NCBI GenBank assembly: GCA_000317655.1
Contig: CP003940.1
Coordinates: 744,001-808,000 of the forward strand
Origin: Cyanobacterium stanieri PCC 7202
GTDB taxonomy: Bacteria; Cyanobacteriota; Cyanobacteriia; Cyanobacteriales; Cyanobacteriaceae
Direction: 5' to 3'
Length of the DNA stretch: 64,000 nucleotides
Shown piece after piece: positions 15,077 through 53,642 of the stretch. The notes under the pieces are model-generated. The model was not told where the DNA came from and ran no database searches. It saw nothing but the letters and a program-made list of their open reading frames with translations. The first letter of the stretch is position 1, and every line of letters begins with the position of its first letter. The position numbers and the translations under genes are program-made.

Positions 15077-15868
15077 GTGTTAAGTAGTCTCAAAAACCCC
15101 CTTATCAAGGAAATACGCAAGTTACAACGCCCTGCCGAAAGACATCGTCAAAATCTTTGTTTATTGGAGGGGACAAATTTATTGGAAGTGGCTTCTCAGG
15201 TTAATTACCCCCTCGATACCTTATTATTTACCCCTATCTGGCAAAATAAAAATTATCTTCTCGCCCAAACTTTACAAAATCAAGCCCAAAGGGTGGAGAT
15301 GGTAAGTGATGAGGTGATGAAGTCTCTGGCAACCACGGTAAATCCTGATGGGGTGTTGGCAACTGCTTCCCGACACCATCGCCAAAGTAAGGATCCTGAC
15401 AATATTAAGTTAGGGGTTGTGTTGGAAAGATTACAGGATCCGGGTAATTTAGGCACTATTATAAGGTCTAGCGTTGCCATGGGGGTGGATATGTTGTGGT
15501 TGAGTGGGGATAGTGTGGATTTGGACAATCCCAAGGTTATGAGGGCTTCTGTGGGGGAGTGGTTTAGGATTAGGGCGAGGGCGGAGGATGATTTAATAAC
15601 TTTGGTGCAAGGTTATGCGCAAAAGGGTTATCAAATTATTGCTACTTCTTTGGAGGGGGATAAAACTCCATGGCAGATTGATTTTTCTTTACCGACAATT
15701 TTATTGATGGGTAATGAGTCTCGGGGTTTGTCTCCTGATTTGGCGGATTTGGCAACGGAGAAGGTAAAAATTCCTTTGCTTAACGGGGTGGAATCCCTCA
15801 ACGTTGCGATCGCCACTAGCCTTTTTTTGGCAGAATATCAAAGACAAAGATTGAGTCATTCACCCTAA
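15077..15868 (+). CDS. TrmH/SpoU-family RNA 2'-O-methyltransferase
   Basis: AdoMet-dependent ribose methyltransferase of the SPOUT superfamily, acting on rRNA or tRNA. The 263-residue product has an N-terminal substrate-binding domain (KNPLIKEIRKLQ, FLLEG-like CLLEGTNLLEVA) and the C-terminal knot with the three motifs: RLQDPGNLGTIIRSSVAMG, LLMGNESRGLS, and IPLLNGVESLNVAIATS. The start is GTG at 15077, which fits the usual family N-terminus. The stop overlaps the convergent thrS stop by 4 nt. Confidence 0.9.
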   Translation: MLSSLKNPLIKEIRKLQRPAERHRQNLCLLEGTNLLEVASQVNYPLDTLLFTPIWQNKNYLLAQTLQNQAQRVEMVSDEVMKSLATTVNPDGVLATASRHHRQSKDPDNIKLGVVLERLQDPGNLGTIIRSSVAMGVDMLWLSGDSVDLDNPKVMRASVGEWFRIRARAEDDLITLVQGYAQKGYQIIATSLEGDKTPWQIDFSLPTILLMGNESRGLSPDLADLATEKVKIPLLNGVESLNVAIATSLFLAEYQRQRLSHSP

Positions 15869-17712
15869 AAAACTTTGCCTAATAATTCTTTCAATTCATC
15901 CAAGTTTAGCTCTCCCATATCACCATCTTTTCTACTTCTGAGGCTAAGGGTTTGTTTCTCTACCTCCTTGTTACCGATGACAGCTACGAGGGGGATTTTT
16001 TCTAGTTCAGCTGTTCTAATTTGTTTCCCGAGGCGATCGCCCTTATAACTTACCTCTACACGATAACCTAGATTGCGTAACTGTTGGGCAACGGAATCAG
16101 CGTAGGGATATTGTTCTTCGGTGACGGGTAATAACCTTAACTGAATGGGTGCTAACCAGAAAGGAAAATCCCCCGCATAGTTTTCAATGAGGATACCGAA
16201 AAATCTTTCTAAAGAACCAAAAATGGCACGGTGAATCATAATAGGGCGTTGACGAGTGCCATCAGAAGCCACATAGTGGAGATCGAAACGTTCTGGGAGG
16301 TTAAAATCTACCTGAATGGTGGAACATTGCCACAATCTACCGATGGCATCCCGAATTTTAATGTCAATTTTAGGGCCATAGAAAGCACCACCCCCATCAT
16401 CTACCACATAATCCCATCTTTTCTCCTTAAGGGCATCGATTAAGCCTTGGGTGGCTAAATCCCAAATTTCTGAACTACCTACGGATTTGGCGGGGCGGGT
16501 AGATAAATTTACCTCATAATCAGTGAAACCAAAATCCGATAAAATTTGCTCCGTAAGGTTCAAAACCCCTAATATTTCCCCTTTAACCTGTTCTGGTAAA
16601 CAGAAGATATGGGCATCATCTTGAGTAAAACCCCTTACCCTCATCAATCCATGTAATACTCCTGAACGCTCATAGCGATACACAGTGCCTAATTCTGCCC
16701 AACGGATGGGTAAATCACGGTAGGAATATAAAGCACTTTTGTAGGTTAGTACATGAAAAGGGCAGTTCATGGGTTTGAGTTGATATTTTTGGGCATCAAT
16801 ATCCATTTGATCGAACATATTTTCCCGATAAAAGTCGTAATGCCCTGATGTTTTCCACAATTCAAGGTTGGCGATGTGGGGGGTATATAAAAATTCGTAG
16901 CCTGATTTTAAATGTTGCTCTCGCCAATAGTTTTCGATGAGTAGGCGCATTTTTGCCCCCTTGGGTAGCCAAAAGACTAATCCCCCTCCTGCATCTTCTT
17001 GGAGGTTAAAGAGTCCTAATTCTGTGCCTAGTTTGCGATGATCTCTTTTTTTTGCTTCTTCTTTTTGGGTTAAATAGGCTTTTAATTGTTCGGGGGTTTC
17101 CCATGCGGTGCCGTAAATTCTTTGTAGTTGGGGGTTGCTTTCATCTCCTCGCCAATAAGCCCCCGCAACGCTTTCGAGGGCGAAGGCTTTGGGGTTGATT
17201 TCCCCTGTATGGTTCACATGGGGGCCAGCGCACAAATCCCACCAGTATTCTTGGGGGGGAATTGGCACTGATTCAATGAGGGATGGTTCGACTTCTGGAT
17301 GGTTGGTTTTGCCCACATCAGGGCTACCGATAAAGTAACGGGTAATGGTTTCGTCTTCGGGAATATTATCTAAGATTTCGAGTTTGTAATTCTCTCCGAG
17401 GGCTTCTATTTCTTCTCGTAAGTGCGATCGCGCTATTTCCTCCCTAATAATGGGCAGTTTTGCCTTGATAATCCTTTTCATCTCCTTTTGAATTAATTTT
17501 AGATCCTCTGGAGTAAAGGGTAAAGGGCGATCGAAATCATAATAAAATCCATTCTCAGTCCAAGGCCCTATAGTTACTTTCGTTTCAGGAAAAAGACTTT
17601 GTACCGCCATCGCCATCACATGGGCGCAAGTATGACGAATACGCAATAACTTATCAGGGTTACTTTGACTTAAAACATCGATGCTATTTTGATCCTTTAC
17701 TGAAACCGCCAT
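15865..17712 (-). CDS. thrS: Threonine--tRNA ligase
   Basis: Charges tRNA-Thr. The 615-residue product starts directly at the editing domain (HTCAH near residue 27, and CAGPH later, both zinc-site-like editing motifs intact), and lacks the N-terminal TGS domain of the E. coli enzyme. The class II core has the zinc ligands in PMNCPFH, DDAH and MIHRAIFGSLERFF. The anticodon-binding domain closes the protein. A Fur/Zur-type box sits 11 nt before the ATG. In Anabaena one of two ThrRS genes is induced by zinc starvation through Zur, so a similar control is plausible here. Confidence 0.95.
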   Translation of the reverse strand: MAVSVKDQNSIDVLSQSNPDKLLRIRHTCAHVMAMAVQSLFPETKVTIGPWTENGFYYDFDRPLPFTPEDLKLIQKEMKRIIKAKLPIIREEIARSHLREEIEALGENYKLEILDNIPEDETITRYFIGSPDVGKTNHPEVEPSLIESVPIPPQEYWWDLCAGPHVNHTGEINPKAFALESVAGAYWRGDESNPQLQRIYGTAWETPEQLKAYLTQKEEAKKRDHRKLGTELGLFNLQEDAGGGLVFWLPKGAKMRLLIENYWREQHLKSGYEFLYTPHIANLELWKTSGHYDFYRENMFDQMDIDAQKYQLKPMNCPFHVLTYKSALYSYRDLPIRWAELGTVYRYERSGVLHGLMRVRGFTQDDAHIFCLPEQVKGEILGVLNLTEQILSDFGFTDYEVNLSTRPAKSVGSSEIWDLATQGLIDALKEKRWDYVVDDGGGAFYGPKIDIKIRDAIGRLWQCSTIQVDFNLPERFDLHYVASDGTRQRPIMIHRAIFGSLERFFGILIENYAGDFPFWLAPIQLRLLPVTEEQYPYADSVAQQLRNLGYRVEVSYKGDRLGKQIRTAELEKIPLVAVIGNKEVEKQTLSLRSRKDGDMGELNLDELKELLGKVF

Positions 17713-17722
17713 ATTAATACTT

Positions 17723-17742
17723 TGAAAATGATTATCATTATT
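17723..17742 (-). promoter_or_regulatory. Fur/Zur-type box before thrS
   Basis: TGAAAATGATTATCA matches the Zur-like palindrome TGATAAT-N-ATTATCA at 13 of 14 fixed positions. In the minus-strand register 17742-17724 it also matches the 19-bp Fur box at 17 positions. It lies in the 43-nt gap between the upstream phosphoesterase gene and thrS. Confidence 0.6.
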
Positions 17743-17755
17743 AATATTATAGCAA

Positions 17756-18451
17756 TTAATACCCCACAGTTTTAAGCATTAACTGACCATTATAAGGACT
17801 ATATAGGACATAACTTGCTTGATGGGGAACTTTGCCCACGTTACCCACCCCAATAATTTTTTTCTCCTTAACATCCTTGCTATAACTACTCTGATCATCC
17901 AAAGTCATTACTTGTGATGTTAAATTACCCTGCTCTAACCTATACTCATACAATAAACCAGAACGCCCCGAAAACATATAATTAACATTCATCCGTTGTA
18001 AACGATCCAACATTACCCAAGGAGAAGTATCAGGGGTTAGCATTTCACCTACACTAACAGTGCTACCATGAATCAAAAGACAATCGAACTCCACAAAACC
18101 AAAATCCAATTTTTGTAACCAGTCCATCACCTCACGGGAAATAGAATCCCATAACTTTTTAGTAGCATCAACTCCAAATTGATCAATTAACTCCATAGGA
18201 TCAGCCGTAGAAGTCAATCCATGAAGGATTAAACATTGTTCCTCCCACCAACCACGACACACATGGGGGATTAATTCATCACTGGGGGGATTGGTTATCC
18301 TCTCGATAACCCTCTCATTTTGCAAACTAATACCAACCACATCACCCAATATATATATATCCTCAATGGTTTGTGTTTGTTGATAAATATCTTTTAATAC
18401 TGCTTCGTAAGCCTTTAAATTTCCTTCAATTCCGCTTAAAATTGCCCACAT
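17756..18451 (-). CDS. Degenerate metallophosphoesterase-like protein
   Basis: A 231-residue calcineurin-fold protein related to its upstream neighbour. The first metal motif DxH is lost (LSGIEGN where active enzymes have SDIHGN), and the last motif GHxH has become GRSG. GDVVG and IHGS remain. Three or more of the metal ligands are therefore missing and phosphatase activity is unlikely; a binding or regulatory role is inference. It lies 43 nt upstream of thrS with a metal-regulator box in the gap. Confidence 0.75.
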   Translation of the reverse strand: MWAILSGIEGNLKAYEAVLKDIYQQTQTIEDIYILGDVVGISLQNERVIERITNPPSDELIPHVCRGWWEEQCLILHGLTSTADPMELIDQFGVDATKKLWDSISREVMDWLQKLDFGFVEFDCLLIHGSTVSVGEMLTPDTSPWVMLDRLQRMNVNYMFSGRSGLLYEYRLEQGNLTSQVMTLDDQSSYSKDVKEKKIIGVGNVGKVPHQASYVLYSPYNGQLMLKTVGY

Positions 18452-18519
18452 TTTTCTTAGTAAATATTTGATAGTGAATGCGTAAGTCCATCAGATACTA
18501 CACTGAGTAAAACTTAATC

Positions 18520-18554
18520 ATTGTCAATTGTCCATTGTTAATTGTCCATTGTTG
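18520..18554. repeat. Heptamer repeat, five units
   Basis: ATTGTCA-ATTGTCC-ATTGTTA-ATTGTCC-ATTGTTG, a perfect period-7 block ending 1 nt before the stop codon of the next minus-strand gene. Part of the dispersed heptamer family. Confidence 0.7.
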
Positions 18555-18555
18555 A

Positions 18556-19371
18556 CTACCTTTGACAGACATGGGATGCGTCTTCCGCTTTTTCCGCAAA
18601 CTCCAATCCCCTACTCAAACGCCAAGCAAAAATAGGCGGTAAACCTTTCTCGATAATATCTCGACAAGTGGAGTGATAATCATATTCAACCTCCCTTAAA
18701 GTTACTTCCCCTGTTTCTTTGTGGTAAATAACATAAGTGGCATTTGGTCTTCCGTGACGAGGTTCACCCACAGATCCCACATTTATAATACGTTTTAAGG
18801 GGCTAGAAAACTGTTTTTCTGCCGATGATGAGTCCATGGGTTGCTCAATTTTTACTTGTAACATACCCCCTGTTAAGTCACGAACATAGGGAATATGGGT
18901 ATGTCCACAAAATAAAACGTCCGCAGAGGAGCTTAAAACACGCTCTAGGGCGGTAAAAGCATCCATTTCGGGCAAAATGTATTCGTGGTTGCTTTGGGGG
19001 CTACCATGGGCAAAACAGAGATTATCTAGTTTCAGAGTATGGGGTAATTCAGCGAGAAATTGACGATTTTCTGGGGTAATTTGTTCATTTGTCCATTCAT
19101 GGGCGAGGATACCTCTTTTTTCTGCCAAAAGAGAGGGATAACTACATTCACAGGCGTTTAACCCTTCTACTATATCTTCATCCCAACATCCTTGTACGGA
19201 GGGAATTTCTAACTCTCGAATTTTATCAACTATTTCATTAGGGTGGGGACCATACCCTACTAAGTCACCTAAGCTATAGATAGCGTCACACTGATGATCT
19301 TCAATATCTTTTAACACCGCTTCAAAAGCTGGTAAATTAGCATGAAGGCAGGACATAACAGCAATTTTCAT
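18556..19371 (-). CDS. Metallophosphoesterase with substituted metal ligands
   Basis: A 271-residue calcineurin-fold phosphoesterase. Motifs in order: SCLHANL (aspartate of DxH replaced by cysteine), GDLVGYGP, GCWDED (asparagine-histidine of GNHD replaced), AHGSP, and CGHTHIP. The C/H-rich set, including NACECSYP, could favour zinc over iron/manganese; this is inference. The substrate is unknown. The gene is transcribed after the CobW-like gene and before its degenerate paralogue and thrS, with gaps of about 105 nt. Confidence 0.8.
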   Translation of the reverse strand: MKIAVMSCLHANLPAFEAVLKDIEDHQCDAIYSLGDLVGYGPHPNEIVDKIRELEIPSVQGCWDEDIVEGLNACECSYPSLLAEKRGILAHEWTNEQITPENRQFLAELPHTLKLDNLCFAHGSPQSNHEYILPEMDAFTALERVLSSSADVLFCGHTHIPYVRDLTGGMLQVKIEQPMDSSSAEKQFSSPLKRIINVGSVGEPRHGRPNATYVIYHKETGEVTLREVEYDYHSTCRDIIEKGLPPIFAWRLSRGLEFAEKAEDASHVCQR

Positions 19372-19476
19372 TTATATTTTTTCCTCAATTTAGATAAATT
19401 GTTTGTAGTTAAGGCTTTGTTTGTAGTTAAGGCTTTAGCCTTGAACTTTGCATTTGATGTAAATTTGATGAAAAAC

Positions 19477-20265
19477 TTAAGCAGTATTACTTGTTAAAGA
19501 TTGTTTTACTTGTTGCTGATAAAAATAAACCGCTGAATCATCCAAACAAAAATCCCCTAAAGTATCAGCCATGGCTTTTTTATCTAAGTTAAAACCAATA
19601 ATTTCTAAACCACTAAAATGAGTTGGTCTGCCCTCAAGGGATAATGGTAAATTTAAGGGATAAAAATCTGGACTATAACTGTTTTGTAAATATTCACCGT
19701 AAATACATTGACCATCCATAATGTTGAATATACCTTTTGCTCGGAGAATATCACCATAAGCACCTAGGGTTAACTCTTGCCAAAAGGTTTCTAAACTAGA
19801 AAAATCTAGCACTTCTTTTGTTAAATTAGCTCGGTGTATTTGTAAATCGGAAAAGTTTTGTAAATGGGGTTTTATGGTTATGGTTTGATTGATAATAATT
19901 TTGTTAACTAGGGATTTCCATTTATCTTGATTTTCTGTTGGGCTTACTATGGCTATTACTTGAGCATTTAATTTTTCAAATAAATCTTTGATGGGGGCAT
20001 AATCTACATATTCAGGTACTTCTAAATAGATATGATTTTTTTGAGATAATTCTATTAAGTCTTGGGGAGATTGTACATCTACAATTGATAAGTCCTGATG
20101 AATACTTTGTAAAAAAGCACCATCAAGGGGAAAGGTATTGGTTTTCGGACTGTAATAATAAAAATTGTTGTCCTGACTTTCCTTTAACTGTTGTTGTATC
20201 CAATGAGTTTTGCCTACACCAAAACTGCCCATTACTACTGTGATCATATTTTTTGATGGTGACAT
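19477..20265 (-). CDS. Divergent CobW/COG0523-like GTPase
   Basis: A 262-residue G3E GTPase relative. Walker A is VMGSFGVGKTHW, and NKxD may be represented by LVNKIIIN. The C-terminal half has the CobW-C pattern LRAKGIFNIMDG...GLEIIGFNLD. The CxCC metal-binding motif of true COG0523 zinc chaperones is absent, so it is a shortened or divergent member. ATG at 20265 is used; 20247 (MITVVMG) is an equally good start. A Fur/Zur-type box lies 10 nt upstream. COG0523 genes are common Zur targets, which fits. Confidence 0.65.
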   Translation of the reverse strand: MSPSKNMITVVMGSFGVGKTHWIQQQLKESQDNNFYYYSPKTNTFPLDGAFLQSIHQDLSIVDVQSPQDLIELSQKNHIYLEVPEYVDYAPIKDLFEKLNAQVIAIVSPTENQDKWKSLVNKIIINQTITIKPHLQNFSDLQIHRANLTKEVLDFSSLETFWQELTLGAYGDILRAKGIFNIMDGQCIYGEYLQNSYSPDFYPLNLPLSLEGRPTHFSGLEIIGFNLDKKAMADTLGDFCLDDSAVYFYQQQVKQSLTSNTA

Positions 20266-20274
20266 TAATAAAAA

Positions 20275-20291
20275 TGATAATCGTTATTATC
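20275..20291 (-). promoter_or_regulatory. Fur/Zur-type box before the CobW-like gene
   Basis: TGATAATCGTTATTATC contains the perfect inverted repeat GATAAT-CGTT-ATTATC and matches the Zur-like consensus at 12 of 14 positions. It lies 10 nt upstream of the start at 20265, so repression at the promoter is plausible. Confidence 0.5.
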
Positions 20292-20355
20292 TTTTTTGGC
20301 AATGGTCGTTGATTTGTTTTAATCTGAGTTTTTGATAAACTGAAAAATTTTTGGG

Positions 20356-32471: not shown

Positions 32472-32646
32472 TTTTATTTTAGGCTAATTTGGATATAGTT
32501 TTGAAGAAAAATAGTCTTTTTATTTAGTAGAAATAATTGCTACATAAATGTTTCAATTTATAGTTTCTGATGGTTTTTTCAATCCTCACAGAAATTATAA
32601 CTTAAGTTATGATAATGGTTATTTTTATGGTTGTCTGTTTATGGGT

Positions 32647-52827: not shown

Positions 52828-53642
52828 ATCTTAACATCTTGGTCTAAACTTCCTGTGGCAATACCATGGTCAAAATAATTAGTTGCATGGGTGCTAACGG
52901 TTAGTAAACCCTGTTCTGAAGCCTGAATGCTATCAATTTCTAAACCATCTCCCAATGACCATAATTTTAGATATTGATCCCAAGAAACACTGACCAAATA
53001 TTTTTTATCATGGGTCAAACTTAAGTCTGTAACTGATTGATTATGGGCTTCGATAATGTGAATACATTTCCAACCAATTCTAGGGGGCGAATTAAGGTTA
53101 TATTCTGGCAATTTTTGATGGATAATTTCGGGATCTGCTAGTTGAATAGAATCACCACTATTTGAACCACTACCATAATTGAGGGAATCTATATAGGGTA
53201 ATTTTTGCTCAATGATACTGATTCTTTTTTGTATATCGTTATTATTTACATAATCAATCATGCTGGTGACGGATTGATTAATCATTTCTATATCTTTTTG
53301 AAGGGAAGCAATGATTTCATTATCAGATACTTTTATTTTTGAGGTAGATAAAGAAGATTTGTTAAAATATTTACTGTTATTTAAAGCATTAAATCTTTCA
53401 TTAATTTCTGCTATTTGTTCAGTAAACTTTTTTAGTTGAATATTAAGAGCTGCCGCAATTCTTTTCTTATTTCTATACTCTAATGATTTACGATTAATCA
53501 GGTTAAGAATTAGCACAATCGCCATAACAAATATAATGGGAAAATTTTCCTGTCCATCCCCGTAGGTGATGAGTAAAATTAAGAAGATTATGACCGTAAT
53601 ATATTCCCCAATCTCCCACCAAGTAAAATTTTTGAAAATCAT
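52794..53642 (-). CDS. Membrane-anchored WD40 protein, N-terminal part (frame-split)
   Basis: A 282-residue ORF with two membrane spans (YITVIIFLILLITYG, NFPIIFVMAIVLILNLI), a coiled coil (about 60-150), and the first two WD40 blades (LVSVSWDQYLKLWSL, GIATGSLDQDVKIWSL). It ends at LEKKEKKN just after two A7 runs (plus-strand T7 at 52801-52807 and 52810-52816). With one extra A it reads on as ELEFRLEHTLTEHTGS into the next ORF, giving about 506 residues. Ends 10 nt from mgtE in the same direction. Confidence 0.8.
   Translation of the reverse strand: MIFKNFTWWEIGEYITVIIFLILLITYGDGQENFPIIFVMAIVLILNLINRKSLEYRNKKRIAAALNIQLKKFTEQIAEINERFNALNNSKYFNKSSLSTSKIKVSDNEIIASLQKDIEMINQSVTSMIDYVNNNDIQKRISIIEQKLPYIDSLNYGSGSNSGDSIQLADPEIIHQKLPEYNLNSPPRIGWKCIHIIEAHNQSVTDLSLTHDKKYLVSVSWDQYLKLWSLGDGLEIDSIQASEQGLLTVSTHATNYFDHGIATGSLDQDVKIWSLEKKEKKN

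Follow-up and report, generated by a model that had tools for sequence, protein, structure and literature searches.

In Anabaena, the T2-type threonyl-tRNA synthetase (ThrRS) is controlled by Zur and replaces the zinc-sensitive T1 enzyme at low zinc; T2 itself uses zinc and edits poorly, and the two types are distinguished by their inserts (a versus b and c), according to the available part of PMC4787780. In Synechococcus PCC 7002, hemB-II, folE-II and the genes G0131 and G0132 are raised in a zur mutant and with the chelator TPEN, and a member of an FAD/NAD(P)-binding family is induced in the zur mutant, as described in the accessible sections of PMC4628125. Here, a locus of Cyanobacterium stanieri PCC 7202 is compared with these systems. 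It lies in a stretch of 64,000 nucleotides (CP003940.1, positions 744,001 to 808,000), hereafter the window, and consists of four minus-strand genes: a cassette for a P-loop protein (GTP, which is a label only), a metallophosphoesterase-like protein (MPPA) and its divergent paralogue (MPPB), followed by thrS2, which encodes a ThrRS. The genome counts 3,163,381 bases in a single contig, and relatives place the window among the cyanobacteria. We explain the block as a zinc-starvation unit that is repressed by Zur and includes a metal-handling cassette, and to this explanation as a whole we give a probability of about 0.6. The part on regulation and orthology (a Zur-type unit with a T2 ThrRS) is very probable from comparison with relatives, and the metal-handling mechanism of the cassette is put forward tentatively.

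The product of thrS2 (15865-17712, minus strand, 615 amino acids) matches TIGR00418 with 710 bits in a Pfam/NCBIfam search. In its editing domain, insert a is present near the DxCxGPH motif, and inserts b and c appear as alignment gaps. A second ThrRS of the genome, of the T1 type and 55% identical to the window enzyme, has the opposite insert pattern, with a spacing in the DxCxGPH region of 21 versus 47 in the window ThrRS. A tree of 46 ThrRS rows splits into 34 on the T2 side and 12 on the T1 side with a support of 100/100; the T1 of this genome groups with its genus mates, and the window row forms a long branch, the place of which inside T2 is unsure. The inserts and the tree split bear out the original prediction of a ThrRS of the kind that is Zur-controlled in Anabaena, and judged by its sequence the window enzyme is the T2 paralogue already known as the Zur-type one. 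Both ThrRS of the genome retain the zinc-ligand motifs MNCP, RGFTxDDxH and MIHRA. A zinc-free ThrRS is therefore rejected, and so is the earlier term ‘zinc-sparing’ in the sense of a zinc-free replacement, which also disagrees with the zinc use of the Anabaena T2 (available part of PMC4787780); ‘zinc-starvation unit’ is the better term. The window ThrRS indeed has no TGS match, as noted earlier, but this does not set the cluster apart: the other ThrRS aligns with it over the full length without an extra N-terminal domain, and TGS loss was rejected as a special feature.

An open reading frame (ORF) list and a box search agree with the predicted arrangement: four ORFs on the minus strand, of which the first and the last are each preceded by a palindromic box. 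The Zur-type box immediately 5' of thrS2 (TGATAATCATTTTCA; core 17723-17737, 21-mer 17720-17740, minus strand) has one mismatch to the consensus TGATAATNATTATCA, and the one upstream of GTP (TGATAATCGTTATTA on the plus strand; core 20275-20289, 21-mer 20272-20292, minus strand) has two. For scoring, a motif was trained on 40 sites upstream of znuA and hemB in other cyanobacterial genomes, all outside the window. It ranks the thrS2 box (19.5 bits) second and the GTP box (18.4 bits) third in the window. Scores of at least 12 bits are reached at 6 window positions, whereas 10 first-order Markov controls average 0.2, and four of the six are the two cluster boxes, each in two overlapping registers. 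The top site (20.0 bits, 32607-32627) is upstream of ftsZ, in the interval separating it from trpD, and the remaining one (12.6 bits) is at 53210-53230; because of these two sites, the motif also marks places without an evident zinc gene. The thrS2 box is located 8-28 bp 5' of the ATG, a position that would fit repression by Zur. The GTP box overlaps a promoter-like -10 element at 20279-20274, which is weak evidence, since the region holds 22 promoter-like sites versus 14.1 in shuffles. The search for a second ThrRS gene and its promoter that the original prediction proposed led to T1, near which the best site scores 9.1 bits. Upstream of this gene (L006, 5' of 1459), TTGATAA units are repeated, and a TGATAATTATCA palindrome is seen out of register with the Zur box (9.1 bits).

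Next, boxes were counted at the named loci, i.e., the best 80 of 385 MPPA relatives from a scan of named genomes. Motif counts exclude the window itself and ORFs with less than 100 bases upstream; those of znuA and hemB are no test, as these genes formed the training set, and one box may serve two divergent genes, which ties the counts of GTP and the FAD gene to each other. A box of at least 8 bits stands upstream of 56/80 GTP genes and 12/15 thrS genes versus 73/857 other ORFs and 0/80 MPPA genes. It is found at 49 of the 63 GTP genes which are apparently first in their unit versus 5 of the 15 apparently internal ones. Counting sites with at most two mismatches, with the window added to the 80 loci, gives 14/17 for znuA, 21/29 for hemB, 12/16 for thrS, 23/32 for the FAD gene, 23/47 for COG0523 and 47/82 for GTP, next to 2/81 for MPPA, 10/70 for MPPB, 4/29 for folE, 0/15 for znuB and 69/922 for other ORFs. 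For genes inside a unit, no box is expected. The order MPPB-thrS with a box at thrS recurs in L107 (17.9 bits), L112 (18.4 bits) and L135 (14.1 bits), and weakly in L113 (8.0 bits). The boxes are thus conserved in relatives and, together with the T2 ThrRS, lend support to the zinc-limitation cluster of the Zur type that had been proposed. Zur-type regulation and T2 identity are well supported by these comparisons, and from them we infer, by analogy, Zur control in this organism.

The three cassette genes travel together. GTP is adjacent to MPPA in 78/80 named loci, and all three genes are adjacent in 45/80. Likewise, MPPA is present in the short flank at 28 of the 30 fetched GTP loci (our own included), the exceptions, G146 and G117, having znuABC or more genes between GTP and MPPA. 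Among 243 genomes of the order, GTP has a match in 117 and MPPB in 126, with both in 116, GTP alone in 1 and MPPB alone in 10, the MPPB query also matching MPPA and perhaps other phosphoesterases. GTP is present in 37/42 genomes with T2 (taken as 71% identity or more to the window ThrRS, with partial matches counted) versus 80/201 without T2 (Fisher 4.7e-9, uncorrected for kinship). Neighbours were grouped into single-linkage families, named mostly by eye, with record annotations in agreement for several. Of eight zinc families (COG0523, folE, hemB, znuABC, thrS and hisI), one or more are within reach in 61/80 loci and two or more in 41/80. With the window included, the 81 loci contain COG0523 (37), the FAD oxidoreductase (32), FolE (29), HemB (28), ZnuC (20), ZnuA (17), ThrS (16), ZnuB (15), a WD40 protein (13), HisI (12), an SLH-type protein (7) and one unnamed family (6). 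An island on plasmid A of Trichormus variabilis ATCC 29413 combines metal ABC transporter genes, hemB, thrS, a gene for a GTP-binding protein and hisI with the cassette, and other plasmid zinc islands carry it in Dolichospermum DET69 and Picosynechococcus PCC 73109. By its linkage and surroundings, we take GTP-MPPA-MPPB to be a real, recurrent cassette of the cyanobacterial zinc response. No literature on a metallophosphoesterase together with the Zur regulon in cyanobacteria was found, nor a name for the cassette in that on phosphoesterases, Zur and zinc deficiency in cyanobacteria, PMC4628125 being the sole match. As a side observation, the gene of the FAD/NAD(P)-binding family beside the cassette often runs divergently from it; one example of the family is at L197 6757-8022.

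GTP (19477-20265, minus strand, 262 amino acids) is a P-loop protein. G18 and K19 of its Walker A motif are found in 80/80 rows with a residue there, 2 further rows being gapped. Its CobW_C match (PF07683, 19.4 bits) stays below the cut-off of 22, and with its predicted model (predicted local distance difference test, pLDDT, of 88) the top Foldseek match is YjiA (E 2.3e-9), with a whole-chain template modelling (TM) score of only 0.31. CxCC occurs in 0/82 GTP rows versus 45/47 neighbouring COG0523 proteins, and a simple [NTS]KxD pattern anywhere in 6/82, with [NT]KxD in 43/47 COG0523 neighbours. The earlier description of a CobW-like protein without CxCC is thus correct, and GTP is called CobW-like here, not a member of COG0523. 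An alternative start is the internal ATG at 20247, where the ORF of relatives L076, L082, L084 and L088 begins; in other relatives, the ORF is a few residues longer than from this ATG.

MPPA (18556-19371, minus strand, 271 amino acids) matches PF12850 with 75.1 bits (cut-off 27), and its predicted model (pLDDT 80, predicted TM score, pTM, 0.82) has 3rqz and the diadenosine tetraphosphate (Ap4A) hydrolase SapH as closest structures. When aligned to 3rqz, cysteines stand at ligand positions 8 and 62, while H10, D36, H122, H157 and H159 are retained. These five residues are found in 81/81 MPPA rows, as are C62, the cysteines C74 and C76 of a CxC motif, C155 and C269, with C236 in 80; the counts of C62 and C155 are biased upwards, because the scan patterns contained them. 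C8 is present in 76/81 rows, and all 13 rows from pattern-free searches carry both C8 and C62. MPPB (17756-18451, minus strand, 231 amino acids) has no Pfam/NCBIfam family match, and a profile search finds 2gju and 1nnw. Most of its metal ligands are gone: the positions hold G, E, W, R and G, of the set, a single Asp and a single His are left, and the DxH and GHTH motifs are lacking. The full set of seven canonical metallophosphoesterase ligands is therefore present in neither protein, in accordance with the changed ligands noted from the sequence before.

For the unit as a whole, we propose two promoters, one 5' of GTP-MPPA-MPPB and one 5' of thrS2, with Zur leaving both boxes when zinc falls. 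The T2 ThrRS would then charge tRNA-Thr in place of the zinc-sensitive T1, as its orthology with Anabaena suggests. The cassette proteins may form a metal-handling complex, in which a CobW-like nucleoside triphosphatase (NTPase) is combined with MPPA, as a bimetal site with two gained thiolate ligands, and MPPB, as a catalytically dead partner. Most likely, the NTPase would drive the capture of scarce metal or its transfer into or out of the thiolate-rich site of MPPA, the direction being presumed, and zinc enzymes would stay loaded as the outcome. In its most specific form, a three-protein metal-delivery machine of NTPase, MPPA as thiolate zinc carrier and MPPB as dead-paralogue scaffold, the idea is rather unlikely, and we know of no other metallophosphoesterase turned metallochaperone. 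If true, this machine would belong to the core of the response to zinc starvation, with its genes located in chromosomal and plasmid zinc islands. To the question of how zinc-starved cells keep their zinc enzymes loaded, the cassette offers a concrete candidate, being tightly linked, Zur-boxed and present in roughly half the genomes sampled from the order.

The main rival is that MPPA is an active phosphoesterase which replaces a zinc-dependent one at low zinc, using iron or manganese with its Cys ligands, aided in maturation or control by MPPB and the P-loop protein, and with a nucleotide such as Ap4A as substrate. The five ligands found in every row would suit an active enzyme, as would its closest solved structures, and Zur regulons often contain paralogues of zinc enzymes, according to the available parts of PMC2770081 and PMC6103462. 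However, two of the seven ligand positions are altered, and a dead paralogue and a CobW-like partner point to metal handling. Such a metal-switched phosphoesterase is somewhat unlikely in our view, and our first choice remains a thiolate-armed phosphoesterase fold that handles metal.

Relatives outside the cyanobacteria bear on both the history of MPPA and its pathway. The three examined of 149 plasmid records matched (L204, L205 and L206) sit in ars operons, with ArsR and ACR3, ArsM or ArsH. Metallophosphoesterases in ars operons have already been mentioned in print. Those examined here are 34% identical to MPPA (33.7 to 34.3) and share a CxC (CGC) aligned with C74/C76, but keep D8 and N62. 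From this combination, the CxC looks older than both ligand changes. It may also suggest that the cassette belongs to another pathway, such as metalloid detoxification, and merely travels in zinc islands. Yet no ars gene is seen among the 14 neighbour families of at least 6 loci (by eye; rarer families were not examined), and the boxes precede the cassette itself, so that we consider another pathway very improbable.

Several results weigh against the Zur-repressed metal-handling unit. At no more than one mismatch, the consensus occurs at 12 places in the whole genome versus 10 for the reversed pattern; it was rejected as proof of Zur sites on its own, and therefore the znuA/hemB-trained motif was used instead. 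Of the zinc genes elsewhere in this genome, folE-COG0523 (24.8 bits) and a znuA-like gene (21.3 bits) do carry boxes, which favours the unit, but none is seen at hemB, present once (best 5.1 bits), or at another znuA-like gene (5.8 bits). A 19.0-bit site lies near the start of a probably exported protein without NCBIfam match (L158 1413-2177). No zinc family is in reach in 19/80 loci, including 9 of the 36 loci of at least 18 kb. In the other 5/81 MPPA rows, which keep C62, position 8 is Asp (L106, L123, L125, L129 and L152, from Cyanothece and Crocosphaera records and one unicellular isolate). No interaction was found between the Anabaena T2 and its COG0523 neighbour, according to the available part of PMC4787780, and the PCC 7002 phosphoesterase G0129 is not induced according to the accessible sections of PMC4628125. 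As to the regulator, the genome encodes four Fur paralogues, of which L002 is the one compared with solved structures. Its best matches by sequence are 7ne9 (‘Ferric uptake regulator family’), followed by 2o03 (‘probable Zinc uptake regulation protein FurB’); no NCBIfam model exceeds its cut-off, and Fur models outscored the Zur model. With an 11.8-bit box beside its gene, the product of L002 is tentatively named as candidate Zur.

A last point of this kind is the 16.1-bit box of a flavodoxin gene in the same genome. Flavodoxin genes are usually iron targets. Because of this site, the box alone does not separate Fur from Zur, and both cluster boxes might be Fur boxes, with the unit answering to iron or to both metals. 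TPEN brought iron limitation too in PCC 7002 (accessible sections of PMC4628125). However, the training sites of the motif lie next to zinc genes, zinc genes are also what recurs around the cassette and, according to the same sections, the gene at the first position of the cassette was induced in the PCC 7002 zur mutant. Control by Fur is therefore regarded as very improbable, and a Zur-type unit as the preferred reading.

In PCC 7002, G0129 and G0130 are not raised in the zur mutant, as far as the accessible sections of PMC4628125 report. When the G numbers are mapped to the plasmid ORFs by order along the plasmid, G0131 corresponds to a truncated GTP gene. The pAQ7 cassette (L200 23717-25488) is disrupted: the ORF in the place of G0131 starts with an N-terminal GTP piece, 99% identical to that of PCC 73109 over 147 residues, and is followed by an ORF without cassette similarity; MPPA is missing, and of MPPB only the C-terminal half (93%) is left, as the last ORF. 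Between the GTP piece and the FAD gene stands an exact box. The disruption may explain why G0129 is not induced, and work in PCC 7002 would miss the system.

The four-gene block has a guanine-plus-cytosine (GC) content of 0.389 versus 0.379 for the window, with 0.32 for GTP alone, which gives nothing decisive for a foreign origin by composition. A phage origin of GTP was rejected, as it has no match in the phage collection. GTP, MPPB and T2 are absent from three other genomes of the genus (at least 99% complete), and a fourth, 63% complete, is also without match. In G172 and G013, two of the three lacking the block, a clean empty site was not found; the mnmE side is conserved and the other side differs. 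Both gaps within the cassette contain short imperfect repeats (window 18520-18550 and 19420-19450; acaatggacaatt; agccttaactacaaac).

Compared to known proteins, GTP shares the P-loop with the COG0523/G3E GTPases (YjiA and kin) and may resemble them further, going by its weak CobW_C match and its best fold match, and differs from them in the missing CxCC, the rare NKxD pattern and the low TM score. MPPA has the fold and five of the seven ligand positions in common with SapH/3rqz-type metallophosphoesterases, from which it is set apart by the cysteines at 8 and 62, the extra CxC and a C-terminal tail with H267 and C269. At the level of the locus, the pAQ7 zur cluster of Synechococcus PCC 7002 is similar in its hemB-II, folE-II and FAD oxidoreductase genes (accessible sections of PMC4628125) and in a GTP homologue with an exact box, whereas its cassette is disrupted. 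With the Zur operon of Anabaena PCC 7120, the block shares a T2 ThrRS and, going by the two boxes found here, probably the layout of two Zur-repressed promoters, one of them just 5' of thrS2 (available parts of PMC4787780 and PMC10957091). According to the same sources, the COG0523 gene all4722 adjoins thrS2 in Anabaena, whereas in C. stanieri GTP-MPPA-MPPB precede thrS2, the block has no canonical COG0523 gene, and folE-COG0523 lies outside of it.

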